NCBI RefSeq assembly: GCF_023347235.1
Contig: NZ_CP094467.1
Span: 2,542,001 to 2,606,000, forward strand
DNA length: 64,000 nucleotides
Reading direction: 5' to 3'
Source of the DNA: Faecalibacterium sp. I4-1-79
GTDB taxonomy: Bacteria; Bacillota; Clostridia; Oscillospirales; Ruminococcaceae
This document shows, in pieces, positions 6,993 through 57,446 of the stretch (its first letter is position 1; each line of letters opens with the position of its first letter). The position numbers and the translations under genes were made by a program. The notes under the pieces were generated by a model. The model saw only the letters and a program-made list of their open reading frames with translations. It searched no databases and was not told the DNA's origin.

Positions 6993-7110
<118 letters not shown>

Positions 7111-7235
7111 GATTTGACTGAATCAGTATAACACATTTCTGCGTATCTGTCCAGTATTTTTAGAAGGACGTGCCTTCAAAACTGAATAATCACTGCTGAC
7201 ATTTTTTCGTTGACTTAAAAGTCTCAAGCGAATTG

Positions 7236-11849
<4,614 letters not shown>

Positions 11850-12045
11850 ATGATATTTATCACTTAAAAGTGTTAAATCTTGTTTCGCTCAGCACGCAAT
11901 CGCTTGCGTCCTGTGTGAATTACCTTTGTTTGGAATTGTTTACCGTGTTTTTCCAACACGAATATAGGTTCCGTTACAAGTTCTTTCGATATTGTTCAAT
12001 TTTCAAGGTCCTGTGCGCCGCAGCCTTGCGGCTGACGACTTGATT

Positions 12046-21329: not shown

Positions 21330-22256
21330 TTATTCTGCATGACGTGCGCAGCCGCGGATCTCGTCCAGCGTTTTCACGCCGTTTTTGTCCATCCATGCTG
21401 CCATCTCATCGGCAATGGTCTCCATCGCGCGGGGGTTTGCAAAGTTTGCCGCGCCCACCTGCACTGCGGCGGCACCTGCCATGATGAACTCCAGTGCGTC
21501 ACGGCCGGTTGCAATGCCGCCCAGACCCACCACCGGGATGTTCACCGCACCCACGGCCTGCCAAACCATGCGCAGGGCGATGGGGCGCACCGCCGGGCCG
21601 GACAGACCGGCAAAGATGTTGTTGAACACCGGGCGGCGCTTTTCCAAGTCAATGGCGCAGGCCTGGAAGGTGTTGGTCAGGCTGATGGCGTCCGCACCGG
21701 CAGCCTCCACAGCCTTGCACATCTCGGGGATATTCTCGGCCTGCGGGCTCAGCTTGACCATCAGGGGCTTTTTGCAGGCAGCGCGCACCATGCGCACCAC
21801 TTCCCCGGCAGCTTCGGCTTTCACGCCGTAGGCCATGCCGCCCACCTTGACGTTGGGGCAGGAGATGTTCAGCTCCACAATGTCCACTGCGCTCTCGCTC
21901 AGCATGGCAGCGCCTTCCACATACTCCTCCTCGCTGTGGCCGCCAAGGTTTGCAATGGCCACCGTGCCGTATTTCTGCTTCAGTTCCAGCATCTCGGGCA
22001 GCTCCACGTCAATAAAGTGCTGCACGCCGGGGTTCTGCAGGCCGATGCTGTTGATGAGGCCGGAGGGGGTCTCCCACAGGCGCTCGCCCTTGTTGCCGTA
22101 CTGGCCGTGCAGGGTAAGCCCCTTGCCGGAGATGCCGCCGATCTTTGCAAAATCGGCCAGTTCCTCGTACTCCACACCGTAGCCCACGGTGCCGGATGCG
22201 CCGATGACCGGGCTGTTCATCACAAAACCCAGCAGGTTGGTTTTCAGGTCTGCCAT
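21330..22256 (-). CDS. pyrD: Dihydroorotate dehydrogenase B, catalytic subunit
   Basis: 308 residues, class 1B length. An FMN TIM-barrel that oxidises dihydroorotate to orotate and passes electrons to PyrK. Catalytic Cys133 is in NISCPN, the class 1 signature, and GLGGIATGRDALEF binds FMN phosphate. The ATG shares one base with the pyrK stop (TGATG), so PyrD and PyrK are made together, as expected for a heterotetramer. Last gene of the pyrC-pyrF-pyrK-pyrD unit. Confidence 0.97.
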   Translation of the reverse strand: MADLKTNLLGFVMNSPVIGASGTVGYGVEYEELADFAKIGGISGKGLTLHGQYGNKGERLWETPSGLINSIGLQNPGVQHFIDVELPEMLELKQKYGTVAIANLGGHSEEEYVEGAAMLSESAVDIVELNISCPNVKVGGMAYGVKAEAAGEVVRMVRAACKKPLMVKLSPQAENIPEMCKAVEAAGADAISLTNTFQACAIDLEKRRPVFNNIFAGLSGPAVRPIALRMVWQAVGAVNIPVVGLGGIATGRDALEFIMAGAAAVQVGAANFANPRAMETIADEMAAWMDKNGVKTLDEIRGCARHAE

Positions 22257-23029
22257 CAGAAGAACACCTCCGTTGCGTCAAATACAGGGCCGTTCTTGCA
22301 CACGCTTTTGCCCTCGCCGCTCTTGGTCTCGCAGGTGCAGCCAAGGCAGGCGCCAATGCCGCAGGCCATCTTCTTTTCCATGCTCACAAAGCAGGGGGTG
22401 CCTTTTTCGGCACACAGGCGGGCGGCGTTCTTCATCATCACGGTGGGGCCGCACACCAGCACCACATCGTAATCGGCGGGGTCATACAGCTGGGTGACAA
22501 AGCCGTGGAAGCCCACCGCGCCGGTGTCGGTGGACACCTTGACGAGGTTTGCGATGCTGCGGTACTCCTCCATGCAGTAGGGGGTATCGCGGAAGCCGAA
22601 GAACACATCCGGCTTTACTCCGGCAGCGGCCAGCTCGCGGGTAAGCTGGAACATGGGTGCAGTGCCGATGCCGCCGCCCACCACGGCGATCTTTTTGTAC
22701 TTGCTCAGGATGTCCGGCACATCAAAGCCGTTGCCCATGGGGCCGGTGAGCTGGAAGGTATCCTGCTGCTTGAGCTGTGCCAGCTTCTCGGTGCCCTCGC
22801 CCACCACCTGATACAAAAACTCGATGGTGCTGCTGTCCGGGTTCCAGCGGTGCACGCTGATGGGGCGGGACAGGAAGGGGGCTTCGTCTGCGCCCCAGGA
22901 GCGCAGGGTGAAGAACTGGCCTGCGTGGGGGGCATGGTCGCGGTCCGGCCACACCACGGTCAGCAGGCGGATGTCCGGGGCAATGACCTCATTGCGCAGG
23001 ACGGTGGCTTCACAGCAGGCTGCACGCAT
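22256..23029 (-). CDS. pyrK: Dihydroorotate dehydrogenase B, electron-transfer subunit
   Basis: 257 residues. FAD-binding RPISV (55-59), a nucleotide-binding GGGIGTAP (118-125) and a 2Fe-2S cluster with Cys223, 228, 231 and 244 (MACGIGACLGC...VCKNGPVF). It moves electrons from PyrD to NAD+. I place the start at ATG 23029, where AAGGAGG lies 9 bases upstream. A TTG two codons earlier is in frame but too close to that site. It overlaps the end of pyrF by 20 bases. Confidence 0.96.
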   Translation of the reverse strand: MRAACCEATVLRNEVIAPDIRLLTVVWPDRDHAPHAGQFFTLRSWGADEAPFLSRPISVHRWNPDSSTIEFLYQVVGEGTEKLAQLKQQDTFQLTGPMGNGFDVPDILSKYKKIAVVGGGIGTAPMFQLTRELAAAGVKPDVFFGFRDTPYCMEEYRSIANLVKVSTDTGAVGFHGFVTQLYDPADYDVVLVCGPTVMMKNAARLCAEKGTPCFVSMEKKMACGIGACLGCTCETKSGEGKSVCKNGPVFDATEVFF

Positions 23030-23876
23030 GAGCAATGGCCTCCTTCATGTTCACACACTCGTTGTAAGCGGCCTCGTCAAAGACAACGCCCGGCTGCTTT
23101 TTGTAAGCCAGCAGGATGCCGCGGCTGGAGTTGACCACGCCCCCGTTGCCCTTGGTGAGGTACTGAGCGATATCCTCGGCCTTGCCGCCCTGTGCGCCGT
23201 AGCCGGGGATCAGGAAGAAGCTGTCCTGATACTTTGCGCGGATCTCGGTGGCCTCCTCGATGTGGGTACCGCCGATGACCAGACCGATGGAGGAGTAGCC
23301 GTGCTCGCCCATATAGTCCTTGCCCAGCGCGTTCAGCTTGTCGCCCACCAGATCGTAGACGTGGCGGCCGTCGGCCAGCTTCTCGTACTCAAAGTCCTTG
23401 GCGCCGCCGTTGGAGGTGCGGCAGAGCACGAACATACCCTTGCCCTGCTTCTCAGCATAGGGCAGATAGGGGCTGATGGAGTCCAGACCCATGTAGGGTG
23501 CCAGCGTGACGAAATCACTCTCGAAATCACCGGTAAAGTGACCCATGGCGTACATCTCGGCAGTCTTGGCAATGTCGCCGCGCTTGATGTCCGCGATCAC
23601 CGGCACACCGGCCTCGCGCACAGCCTTCAGGGTGTCGGCGTAGGCCTTCATGCCCTCCATGCCCAGAGACTCATAATAAGCGATCTGCACCTTGTAGCAG
23701 CCGGCCACAGCCTTGGTGGCATCAATGAGCTTCTTGTTGAAGCGCACGATGTTCTCGCCCTTGGTCAGGGTGCTGTCCACAAAGTCGGCGGGCAGGTAGC
23801 TGAAATCGGTGTCCAGACCCACGCACACCGGGCCGCGGGCTTCCACAGCTTCGTACAGTTTGTCCATGTTCGTCAT
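23010..23876 (-). CDS. pyrF: Orotidine-5'-phosphate decarboxylase
   Basis: 288 residues, the longer type 2 form. It decarboxylates OMP to UMP. The catalytic Asp-Lys-Asp array is in DIKRGDIAKTAEMY (Asp96, Lys98, Asp101). AGGAGG precedes the ATG. It follows pyrC by 56 bases and overlaps pyrK by 20. Confidence 0.96.
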   Translation of the reverse strand: MTNMDKLYEAVEARGPVCVGLDTDFSYLPADFVDSTLTKGENIVRFNKKLIDATKAVAGCYKVQIAYYESLGMEGMKAYADTLKAVREAGVPVIADIKRGDIAKTAEMYAMGHFTGDFESDFVTLAPYMGLDSISPYLPYAEKQGKGMFVLCRTSNGGAKDFEYEKLADGRHVYDLVGDKLNALGKDYMGEHGYSSIGLVIGGTHIEEATEIRAKYQDSFFLIPGYGAQGGKAEDIAQYLTKGNGGVVNSSRGILLAYKKQPGVVFDEAAYNECVNMKEAIAHACSLL

Positions 23877-23932: not shown

Positions 23933-25123
23933 TTACTCCTCGGCCTGATAGGTGATCTTACCGGCCTTGATGGTGGCAAACACCTTGCCGTAGAGCTGTG
24001 CACCGTCAAAGGGAGTGTTGTGGCTCTTGGAGTGCAGCTTTTCCTTTTCCACCGTGTAGGGAGTGTCCAGATCCACCAGCACAAAATCGGCATCGAAGCC
24101 CGGCTCCAGCTGACCCTTGGCAAGGCCCAAAATCTCGGCGGGGCGGGTGCTCATCAGATGCACCAGCAGCTCCAGCGGCAGACCCTCCTGCTTGCAGAGC
24201 TTAGTGTAGCACACGCCGAAGGCGGTCTCGCTGCCCACCATACCGGCCATGCCCTTCAGCTTATCCTCTTCGGAGTGGGGTGCATGGTCTGTGGCAATGG
24301 CGTCAACGATGCCGGTGCGGATGCCCTCCACCAGTGCCTCCACGTCATCGGCGGTGCGGATGGGCGGGTTGACCCGGTAGTCGCAGGTGTCGTTGGTGAA
24401 CCACAGGTGGTGGGGGGTCACCTCACAGGTGACGGGTGCGCCCCGCAGCTTTGCCGTGCGGATGGCGTCCAGCGCACCCCGGGTGGACACATGGCACATG
24501 TGCAGCCGGGTCTGGTAGTACTCGCTCAGCCAGCAGTTGCGCACTGTCTCGATGTCCTCGGCCAGACGGTAGTCCCACGGGCTGATCTCCATATCCTCGG
24601 CGTGGCTCATGACCGTGATGTCCTTCTGGGTGCAGATGGCAAAGGCCCGCGCCATGGTGGCGTTATCCTGCACGCCGTGGCCATCCTCGGTGATGAACTT
24701 CACGCTGGCGGGCAGAGTCTTGAGGTGGTCGATGCTCACACCGTCAAAGTTCTCGGTGATGGAGACGGTCTGGTTTGCATCGCACAGCCCCACCTCGGCG
24801 GCTTTCTGCTCCACCATCATGGCCTGTGCGGCGGAAGAGCAGACGGGCTTGGTGTTGGGCATCAGGTTTACAAAGGTGTAACCACCGGCGGCGGCGGCGC
24901 GGCTGCCGGTCTCGATGTCCTCCTTGTACTCAAAGCCCGGGGTGCGCCAGTGGCAGTGCAGGTCCACAAATGCGGGCAGCACCGTCAGCCCACCGGCATC
25001 CACCACCGTCTCGTTCTCGGCGGCAAGGGCGGAAAGATCCTGCCCTACGGCAGCGATTTTGCCATCCTTTACATAGATCTCGAGCGGCCGTCCCTCGGTG
25101 TTCACAGCGTTTGTCAGCAGCAT
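23933..25123 (-). CDS. pyrC: Dihydroorotase
   Basis: 396 residues, an amidohydrolase that closes carbamoyl-aspartate to dihydroorotate. The metal motif is VDLHCHWRTPG (His56, His58), and the third region is ATDHAPHS. MSHAEDMEIS and CHVSTRGA carry the other ligands. AGGAGG lies 7-8 bases before the ATG. First gene of the unit, transcribed through the attenuated leader described at 25177-25370. The aspartate carbamoyltransferase gene (pyrB) that would precede it in the pathway is not in this window. Confidence 0.95.
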   Translation of the reverse strand: MLLTNAVNTEGRPLEIYVKDGKIAAVGQDLSALAAENETVVDAGGLTVLPAFVDLHCHWRTPGFEYKEDIETGSRAAAAGGYTFVNLMPNTKPVCSSAAQAMMVEQKAAEVGLCDANQTVSITENFDGVSIDHLKTLPASVKFITEDGHGVQDNATMARAFAICTQKDITVMSHAEDMEISPWDYRLAEDIETVRNCWLSEYYQTRLHMCHVSTRGALDAIRTAKLRGAPVTCEVTPHHLWFTNDTCDYRVNPPIRTADDVEALVEGIRTGIVDAIATDHAPHSEEDKLKGMAGMVGSETAFGVCYTKLCKQEGLPLELLVHLMSTRPAEILGLAKGQLEPGFDADFVLVDLDTPYTVEKEKLHSKSHNTPFDGAQLYGKVFATIKAGKITYQAEE

Positions 25124-25176
25124 CGCGGTTCCCTCCTGTAATGGTATTTTTGTGTATCAAACGCCCGAAAACGGGC

Positions 25177-25207
25177 AAAAAAAAACTTTTCCCCGCAAAG
25201 GGAAAAG
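25177..25207 (-). terminator. pyr operon attenuator
   Basis: On minus CTTTTCCC (25200-25207) pairs perfectly with GGGAAAAG (25186-25193) and is followed by nine T. It lies inside the pyrC leader, one base after a leader-peptide stop codon, and about 50 bases before the pyrC start. A second small stem, GCCCG/CGGGC (25163-25176), follows it. Confidence 0.85.
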
Positions 25208-25208
25208 C

Positions 25209-25298
25209 TCATTGCGCAAAAAAAGGAAACAACGAAGCCACGGCAAAACCGGACGCGAACTGCTTGTTCAGTTTCGGGTTCTGGGCGCTGCACAGCAT
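25209..25298 (-). CDS. pyr operon leader peptide (29 aa)
   Basis: ATG 25298 to TGA 25209. AAGGAG sits 7 bases before the ATG, a strong ribosome-binding site. The peptide starts MLCSAQNPKL and ends ASLFPFFAQ. Its last third is encoded by the U-rich tract TTGTTTCCTTTTTTTGCG on minus, and its stop codon is one base upstream of the attenuator stem. A ribosome at the stop would cover the 5' arm and prevent termination. This is the design of enterobacterial pyrE/pyrBI leaders, where RNA polymerase slows at U-tracts when UTP is low. The peptide has no expected function of its own. That it is translated is inferred. Confidence 0.7.
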   Translation of the reverse strand: MLCSAQNPKLNKQFASGFAVASLFPFFAQ

Positions 25299-25340
25299 GG
25301 TGTTTCTCCTTTTTATGATGGTTGCGTTTTCATTCGTATT

Positions 25341-25370
25341 ATTTTATCATAGAACCGCAAAATATGTCAA
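25341..25370 (-). promoter_or_regulatory. pyrC operon promoter
   Basis: TTGACA (25365-25370), an 18-base spacer and TAAAAT (25341-25346) on minus. It gives a leader of about 210 bases containing the leader peptide and attenuator. Confidence 0.82.
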
Positions 25371-57144: not shown

Positions 57145-57446
57145 AATAAAAGCGTTGACCGGGAAAAGTAAGGTTTCAGGTTTTTCTTGCAGAGAGCGCG
57201 GGACGGTGGAAACCGCGCAGAAAACGAAGCCCGAAGAACACCCGTGAGCCGCTCCCTGAACCTGCGTGTGCAGCAGTAGGGGCAGACGTGCGCCGCTCGT
57301 TATCGCGGCAGTGCTTTCAACGGGGAGAGCGCACAAAAGTGACCGGCGTATTGCGTATGCCGGTAATTTAGGTGGCACCACGGATACGGCAGCATATTCG
57401 TCCTAGGACTATGGGATGAATGGCTGCCGTATTTTTATTTTTATCG
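57145..57446 (+). promoter_or_regulatory. T-box riboswitch for tRNA-Asn
   Basis: Stem I shows AGTAAG (about 57167), AGAGAG (57191-57196), GGTGGA (57205-57210) and the specifier AAC (57237-57239) followed by ACCCGTGAGC. The T-box core AGGTGGCACCACGG starts at 57370. TGGC predicts discriminator G, which fits tRNA-Asn. The terminator ATACGGCAGC (57384-57393) / GCTGCCGTAT (57423-57432) is followed by TTTTATTTTTAT. Controls asnB. Confidence 0.93.

Follow-up and report, generated by a model that had tools for sequence, protein, structure and literature searches.

A conserved leader ORF before pyrC in Faecalibacterium: a candidate UTP-sensing attenuator with a predicted gate over its ribosome-binding site

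The pyr operons of Firmicutes are commonly taught as being controlled by PyrR. In the E. coli pyrE attenuator, the open reading frame (ORF) ahead of the terminator is that of a real upstream gene, rph, which ends shortly before the terminator, and a ribosome at its stop codon can cover the terminator. The E. coli pyrBI operon carries before its first gene a leader ORF (pyrL) with a U-rich, A-poor stretch and an intrinsic terminator, and the logic of its attenuation is described in sections of PMC10135430 and PMC5021804. According to parts of PMC4824070, termination in E. coli fell from ~90% to <10% when a stop codon was moved from 28 to 5 bp before the stem, the effect of the stop codon ends beyond 27 nt, and terminators that lie within 100 bp of the start of a coding region evade the ribosome if pausing does not assist it. 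Such following by a ribosome is disfavoured in Bacillota, since a part of PMC13323073 classes them at phylum level as runaway, with RNA polymerase outrunning the ribosomes; runaway transcription in B. subtilis is the subject of the corresponding part of PMC7858274. Leader-peptide attenuators have also been predicted for histidine genes in bacilli, as a section of PMC2965389 reports. These too are of a Firmicute leader-peptide type, but they sense an amino acid through a run of codons, whereas the signal proposed below is nucleotide supply.

The locus described here, a leader before pyrC in Faecalibacterium, shares with E. coli pyrBI a leader ORF before the first pyr gene, a U-rich and A-poor stretch (in the last 40 nt of pyrL, T 0.35 and A 0.07) and an intrinsic terminator. 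The terminator lies at a similar distance from the start codon (87 nt in pyrL, 91 nt here), and a T-tract followed by GCCC is common to both. In contrast to pyrL, whose ORF passes through the terminator, 44 of the 45 leaders here have their stop codon 0-1 nt ahead of the stem; the host is a member of the Bacillota in which Rho was not found over cut-off (13 genus genomes), and the peptides have no detectable sequence relation. The position of the stop codon recalls E. coli pyrE, where rph ends just before the terminator, but a short dedicated leader takes the place of a real gene. PyrR attenuation, known from Bacillus and other Firmicutes, acts on the same genes in related bacteria; it differs in that here we find no PyrR over cut-off in 31 genus genomes, no PyrR RNA motif in the window, and a putatively translated leader instead. 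Among the papers listed by full-text literature searches with partial journal coverage, no title or abstract dealt with attenuation at a pyr leader of Faecalibacterium or related bacteria, and Faecalibacterium goes unmentioned in the consulted parts of PMC2965389, PMC6429828 and PMC3766115.

The pyr genes and the leader locus

The window, by which we mean the whole 64-kb stretch of DNA that was analysed, belongs to a genome of 3.23 Mb in one contig, whose PyrC is 99% identical to that of named F. prausnitzii strains. On its minus strand are encoded pyrC (dihydroorotase, the first gene of the operon, 23933..25123; TIGR00857), pyrF (orotidine-5'-phosphate decarboxylase, 23010..23876; TIGR02127), pyrK (dihydroorotate dehydrogenase electron transfer subunit, 22256..23035; NF000798) and pyrD (dihydroorotate dehydrogenase, 21330..22256; NF005574), each over the cut-off of the model given. 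They are followed on the same strand by pyrE, carA and carB, the last of these read from its translation. An earlier note on this DNA had stated that the pyrE-carAB unit lacks a leader of the kind described below, and this is borne out: pyrE has a promoter-like site of its own and no attenuator. The genome also holds two pyrB paralogues (C1:1772289-1773233, plus strand; C1:2695878-2696774, minus strand), and the upstream regions of both are without this leader. Other features of the window include a ribosomal RNA operon (6993-11850, minus strand) and a T-box leader over the Rfam gathering score (57146-57408, plus strand).

Reading along the minus strand from the divergent cysE, we find a promoter, a Shine-Dalgarno sequence (SD), the leader ORF, the U-rich tract, the terminator and pyrC; all coordinates in this paragraph refer to that strand. 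The promoter (25341..25370) consists of a -35 TTGACA, 18 nt and a TG-extended -10 TAAAAT, with 11 of 12 consensus matches, and the same hexamers occur in other Faecalibacterium upstreams. The SD, AAGGAG (25306..25311), stands 7 nt ahead of the ATG at 25298, which opens a frame of 29 codons (25209..25298; MLCSAQNPKLNKQFASGFAVASLFPFFAQ) ending in TGA at 25211-25209, and both the frame and the position of its stop are conserved. The end of this frame is rich in U and poor in A (19 T and 2 A per 40 nt, 25212..25251) and contains the tract TTGTTTCCTTTTTTTGCG (25215..25232). A single base (25208) separates the stop codon from the intrinsic terminator (25177..25207), which is made up of an 8-bp stem, CTTTTCCC/GGGAAAAG, with a loop of 6 (25207-25186), followed by nine T (25185-25177). 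The layout had been set out in the earlier note from the promoter, SD and 29-codon ORF to the U-tract, stop codon, 8-pair stem, nine T and pyrC, and every detail of it checks against the sequence.

Two minor elements flank this arrangement on the same strand. Immediately 3' of the T-tract there is a small second hairpin, GCCCGTTTTCGGGC (25176-25163). Between cysE and pyrC, upstream of the pyrC promoter, lies the palindrome TTTTGGGTAGAGTATCCAAAA (25442-25422), with counterparts in several Faecalibacterium upstreams and the version TTTTTGTAAGCTTTACTAAAAA in the poultry clade; it is a possible regulator site, for either cysE or pyrC.

Scans for promoters (1 found, 0.7 expected in 2.5 kb) and for terminators (3 found, 2.7 expected) each perform no better than chance when taken alone, and the case for the element therefore rests on conservation. 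The fold z-score of the window leader is only -1.82. The terminator pattern occurs a single time in the 3.2-Mb genome and not at all in the reversed control. Scanning 464 kb for similar attenuators yielded ORF hits, 5 in all, at 4 of the 35 terminators, compared with 0 of 4 in the reversed control, and among these hits the window leader alone is judged convincing.

Distribution of the leader, PyrR and Rho

We assembled the upstream regions of 68 loci, drawn from 31 genus genomes (30 of which supplied loci), 37 named loci and the window, and merged those identical over 300 nt, which left 47 distinct upstreams. Comparison of pyrC leaders across related genomes, a check that the earlier note had proposed in the form of an alignment, places the attenuator before pyrC in 41 of the 47, and in the four Anaerofilum loci, where pyrB and pyrI are ahead of pyrC, it stands before pyrB. 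Two Clostridium loci (L065, L066) have no leader and were dropped before the leader counts, which refer to 45 distinct leaders, near-identical ones included.

The leader ORFs are 22-33 codons long and end in TGA (37), TAA (6) or TAG (2). The gap between the stop codon and the stem (CTTTTCC) is 0 nt in 22 of the 45 leaders and 1 nt in another 22. The sole exception is a pyrC leader (L009, genome G015) that has six T in the U-tract where its relatives have seven and whose frame extends 13 nt into the stem; this frame ends within the terminator loop, and may represent a real variant, a slippage site or a sequencing error. The leader peptides are recognisable inside a clade and unrelated across genera. 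When the interior of the leader was shuffled, it stayed open in the right frame with a chance of 0.12-0.33 for each of 13 representatives; the product of these values, ~6e-10, is too small because the leaders share ancestry. Open leader frames would nonetheless not be expected to outlast such divergence of the peptide unless they were under selection. The in-frame pN/pS values of four groups (0.69, 0.52, 0.51 and 0.91, with 0.60-0.99 in the other frames) lend weak support to coding. The earlier claim that a translated leader controls the terminator ahead of the pyr genes is strengthened by the retention of frame and stop codon in spite of peptide divergence.

The composition of the leader changes along its length: over the final 40 nt ahead of the stop codon, T averages ~0.44 and A ~0.08 across the leaders, as against ~0.14 and ~0.31 at 61-100 nt before it. 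This U enrichment exceeds what the peptide requires. Across the 29 Faecalibacterium leaders the last 14 codons contain 518 T, where peptide and codon usage would predict 418.5 (sd 9, assuming independent leaders; those of Faecalibacterium are related), and across the 16 other leaders they contain 287, where 235.2 would be predicted. The peptide itself is also skewed, Phe taking 24% of these codons in Faecalibacterium and 21% in the others, compared with 3.9%. Among sampled genes, 40-nt stretches of coding sequence with at least 19 T are found at 602 of 123708 positions.

A survey of the family found the terminator pattern in 32 of 396 genomes, once per genome, and none in the reversed control. 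All 30 pattern loci that we fetched precede pyrC (25) or pyrB with pyrC further on (5), and the stop codon lies 0-1 nt from the stem in 29 of them; judged by their leader sequences, 16 of the 30 are new, the other 14 coming from genomes that had been counted before. Since the pattern misses at least one genome (G016, whose leader L014 differs at the stem end), it understates prevalence. In total, 14 genera of a single Bacillota family have the attenuator: 11 were found by pattern, and L139, L146 and L147 add the rest, the stem of L147 being altered yet still paired (a looser form). A looser form of the attenuator occurs in three further genera. In three pyrB leaders (L148, L152, L154) the ORF reaches into or through the terminator, and in this L152 and L154, which come from distant genera, are built like E. 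coli pyrL. Judging by these variants, the common feature is not the stop codon itself but an ORF that would carry a ribosome to the terminator. Four of 17 further loci (L151, L155, L156, L157) are without such a leader, and two of them, L156 and L157, belong to genera that have PyrR.

The earlier note had seen neither pyrR nor a PyrR-type antiterminator, and this observation holds on a wider scale: none of the 31 genus genomes has PyrR (NF003549) over cut-off, although weak sub-cut-off matches occur in 30, and the PyrR-binding RNA motif RF00515 is not among the matches in the 64-kb window. On these grounds we rejected PyrR control. PyrR is over cut-off in 150 of the 396 family genomes, which divide into 0 of 32 genomes with the pattern and 150 of 364 others (Fisher p=1.3e-7 by genome). 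Counted by genus, with the overlap between genera judged by eye, the figures are 0 of 11 and 63 of 115 (p=6e-4). Because the genera with the pattern are related, the exclusion perhaps reflects one event, a single replacement.

Rho (TIGR00767) is over cut-off in none of 13 genus genomes, that of the window included, where the best weak match scores 77.9 bits against 509, and in 8 of 14 control genomes. The leader is thus unlikely to be a Rho target in Faecalibacterium, and the reading of the pyrimidine-rich tract as a Rho site was rejected for the genus. A riboswitch likewise finds no support: no Rfam family is over its gathering score at the leader, where one chance-level match (E 0.9) was returned, and the leader interior varies between genera.

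Predicted pairing of the SD with the U-rich tract

Folding pairs the U-rich tract with the leader's own SD, a predicted complementarity that the earlier note missed and that is new here. In the window the predicted hairpin has the 5' arm AAAAAGGAGAAAC, with the SD inside it (25302..25314, minus strand), and the 3' arm GTTTCCTTTTTTT, complementary to the SD region (25218..25230, minus strand). Given that the tract is complementary to the SD, the logic of the leader may be one of gated ribosome loading rather than of simple following. Among the papers listed by the same literature searches, again with partial journal coverage, no title or abstract concerned SD sequestration in pyrBI. The partner varies with the SD from clade to clade: AAAAAGGAGAAAC pairs with GTTTCCTTTTTTT in the window, AAGGGGAAC with GTTCCCC in the poultry clade and GGGGCCGGC with GCCGGTGTT in Fournierella, while in Anaerofilum the complement of the SD is just 3' of the start codon and the pairing falls outside the tract.

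The duplex of a leader's own SD and tract is better than that with shuffled tracts in 15 of 17 clades (p=1.5e-4), better than that with the tracts of other clades in 13 of 17 (p=0.009) and better than that with the SDs of other clades in 14 of 17 (p=0.017). The mean unpaired probability of the SD is 0.11 over the 45 leaders, and below 0.25 in 38 of them. Shuffling the ORFs raises this mean to 0.32, with 36 of the 45 real leaders below their shuffles, and recoding them with synonymous codons raises it to 0.26, with 38 of the 45 below; the SDs of 190 ordinary genes in the genome average 0.42. Twenty loci of other genera gave a weaker effect in the same direction (0.18 vs 0.27; 15 of 20, p=0.027), a count that includes two loci, L119 and L120, whose SD window was mis-set; this set is composed of the 16 new loci minus the near-copies L111, L114 and L116, plus seven further loci. 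Pairing of the SD with the 5' arm of the terminator is also better than that of shuffled SDs, in 40 of 45 leaders, but was set aside because that arm is pyrimidine-rich by need.

We also folded the leaders stepwise, holding 12 nt back within the polymerase. Mean openness of the SD across the 45 leaders is 0.62 with the polymerase 27-45 nt past the start codon, 0.53 with the polymerase 20 nt from the stop codon and 0.11 once the whole ORF is out. Openness drops in 43 of the 45 leaders, though only 30 are both open early (>0.5) and shut late (<0.25). The predicted gate is weak in some clades: the SD is open in L025 and L060, and in Anaerofilum L050 it is shut by 33 nt past the start. For the window leader alone the gate is not significant, 12% of ORF shuffles being equally closed; its tract pairs better with SDs of other clades in 91% of swaps, and its SD is still 0.41 open with the polymerase at the stop codon. 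Covariation within clades that would favour the gate is thin, RNAalifold finding compensatory changes in 5 of the 31 pairs of the F. prausnitzii group, where 27 of 279 cells are unpaired, and in none of the 28 pairs of the poultry group or the 22 of Fournierella.

Proposed mechanism and alternative readings

From the conservation and folding results we incline, with modest confidence, to the view that the leader is probably a UTP-sensing, ribosome-dependent pyr attenuator of the pyrBI/pyrE kind, equipped with a gated ribosome-binding site. The attenuator reading of the earlier note gains from the position of the element before pyrB where pyrB leads the operon, from the lack of PyrR over cut-off and from the excess of U. 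When UTP is plentiful, RNA polymerase would cross the U-rich tract quickly, the tract would fold onto the SD and block ribosome loading, and the terminator would form, leaving the pyr genes off. When UTP is scarce, the polymerase would pause in the tract, and with the tract not yet out of the enzyme the SD would be open; a ribosome could then load, move to the stop codon and cover the 5' arm of the terminator, so that transcription would continue into pyrCFKD. The ribosome would have to load early but would not have to ride tightly behind the polymerase; the gate would make tight coupling unnecessary because only early loading matters.

Such a leader would be a UTP switch that works, like its E. 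coli counterparts, by the relative timing of polymerase and ribosome, in bacteria where coupling of this sort was considered unlikely. Its retention in 14 genera of a Bacillota family points to ribosomes that still steer transcription there by loading on nascent RNA, and the pyrC leader would offer a natural reporter for the coupling question in an abundant human gut genus. Among terminators within 80 nt of a stop codon, the share lying at 12 nt or less is 9 of 43 for a Faecalibacterium sample, 7 of 20 for E. coli, 1 of 6 for L. eligens and 9 of 19 for Acetoanaerobium; we rejected this distance as a test of coupling, the counts being too few and too mixed to decide for the genus. Purine bias is 0.017, compared with 0.026 in E. 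coli, 0.103 in Lachnospira eligens and 0.122 in Acetoanaerobium, and was dropped as a sign of coupling because, according to part of PMC13323073, loss of Rho alone may remove the bias.

The gated reading has to be weighed against plain attenuation of the pyrBI/pyrE type, in which the U-tract pauses the polymerase, a following ribosome covers the terminator and there is no gate, an account that we consider unlikely while taking it seriously. The conservation evidence fits it equally well, as does the enrichment of U through amino-acid and codon choice, and L017, L025, L053 and L060, as in part the Fournierella group, have a weak gate or none. The complementarity would then simply follow from the SD being rich in purines and the tract in pyrimidines; against this, the pairing is stronger than in shuffles that preserve composition (15 of 17 clades), than in exchanges between clades (13 and 14 of 17) and than after synonymous recoding (38 of 45 leaders), and the partner shifts with the SD between clades. 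It is improbable, in our judgement, that the leader senses translation in some other way that is not specific to UTP, whether the signal is ribosome supply, initiation rate or, by stalling at Phe codons, Phe-tRNA. Any ribosome-dependent terminator would respond to translation generally, and the leader is rich in Phe (24% of its last 14 codons), but the element precedes pyr genes in 30 of 30 fetched loci, the number of Phe residues varies (L122 has a single one) and Phe does not account for all of the T excess. In the stalling version a ribosome held at Phe codons would mask the partner of the SD. With respect to amino-acid attenuation, the leader is Phe-rich but the genes behind it are pyr genes.

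A trans-acting factor, be it a small RNA or a protein that senses pyrimidines and is not PyrR, might instead open or shut the hairpin, with the U-richness serving merely as an anti-SD. The predicted hairpin over the SD would present a possible target, but we think this very improbable, given a leader interior that is not conserved across genera and that matches no Rfam family over its gathering score, and given that U is enriched outside the anti-SD too, for example in Anaerofilum, where the anti-SD is near the start. We find it scarcely credible that the ORF is a small gene in its own right, with a terminator of its own, unconnected to the control of pyrC. Promoter, SD, ORF and terminator are indeed all present and in-frame pN/pS is below 1; the peptide, however, is unconserved across genera, the element is invariably located ahead of the first pyr gene, and in some genera the stem is just 37-42 nt from pyrC, which leaves scant space for a second promoter.

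If the gate of the preferred reading is real, a specific new prediction follows from it for the classical attenuator of E. coli pyrBI. We advance, tentatively and as something quite possible without being probable, the wider hypothesis that UTP-sensing pyr attenuators are ribosome-loading timers whose U-tract is both UTP sensor and anti-SD, control depending on a ribosome having loaded by the time the tract appears, not on tight coupling; such timers would work without PyrR and, in Faecalibacterium, without Rho, and E. coli pyrL would obey the same rule. The predicted late closing of the SD is common to pyrL and most of the leaders described here. In pyrL, the plain duplex test gives no signal (-14.3 vs -13.4 shuffled). 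Openness of its SD is 0.42-0.78 until +75, 0.03 at +81 and 0.00 at the stem (+87), and the partition-function test gives 0.00 vs 0.14 for shuffled sequences, with 0 of 200 shuffles as closed.
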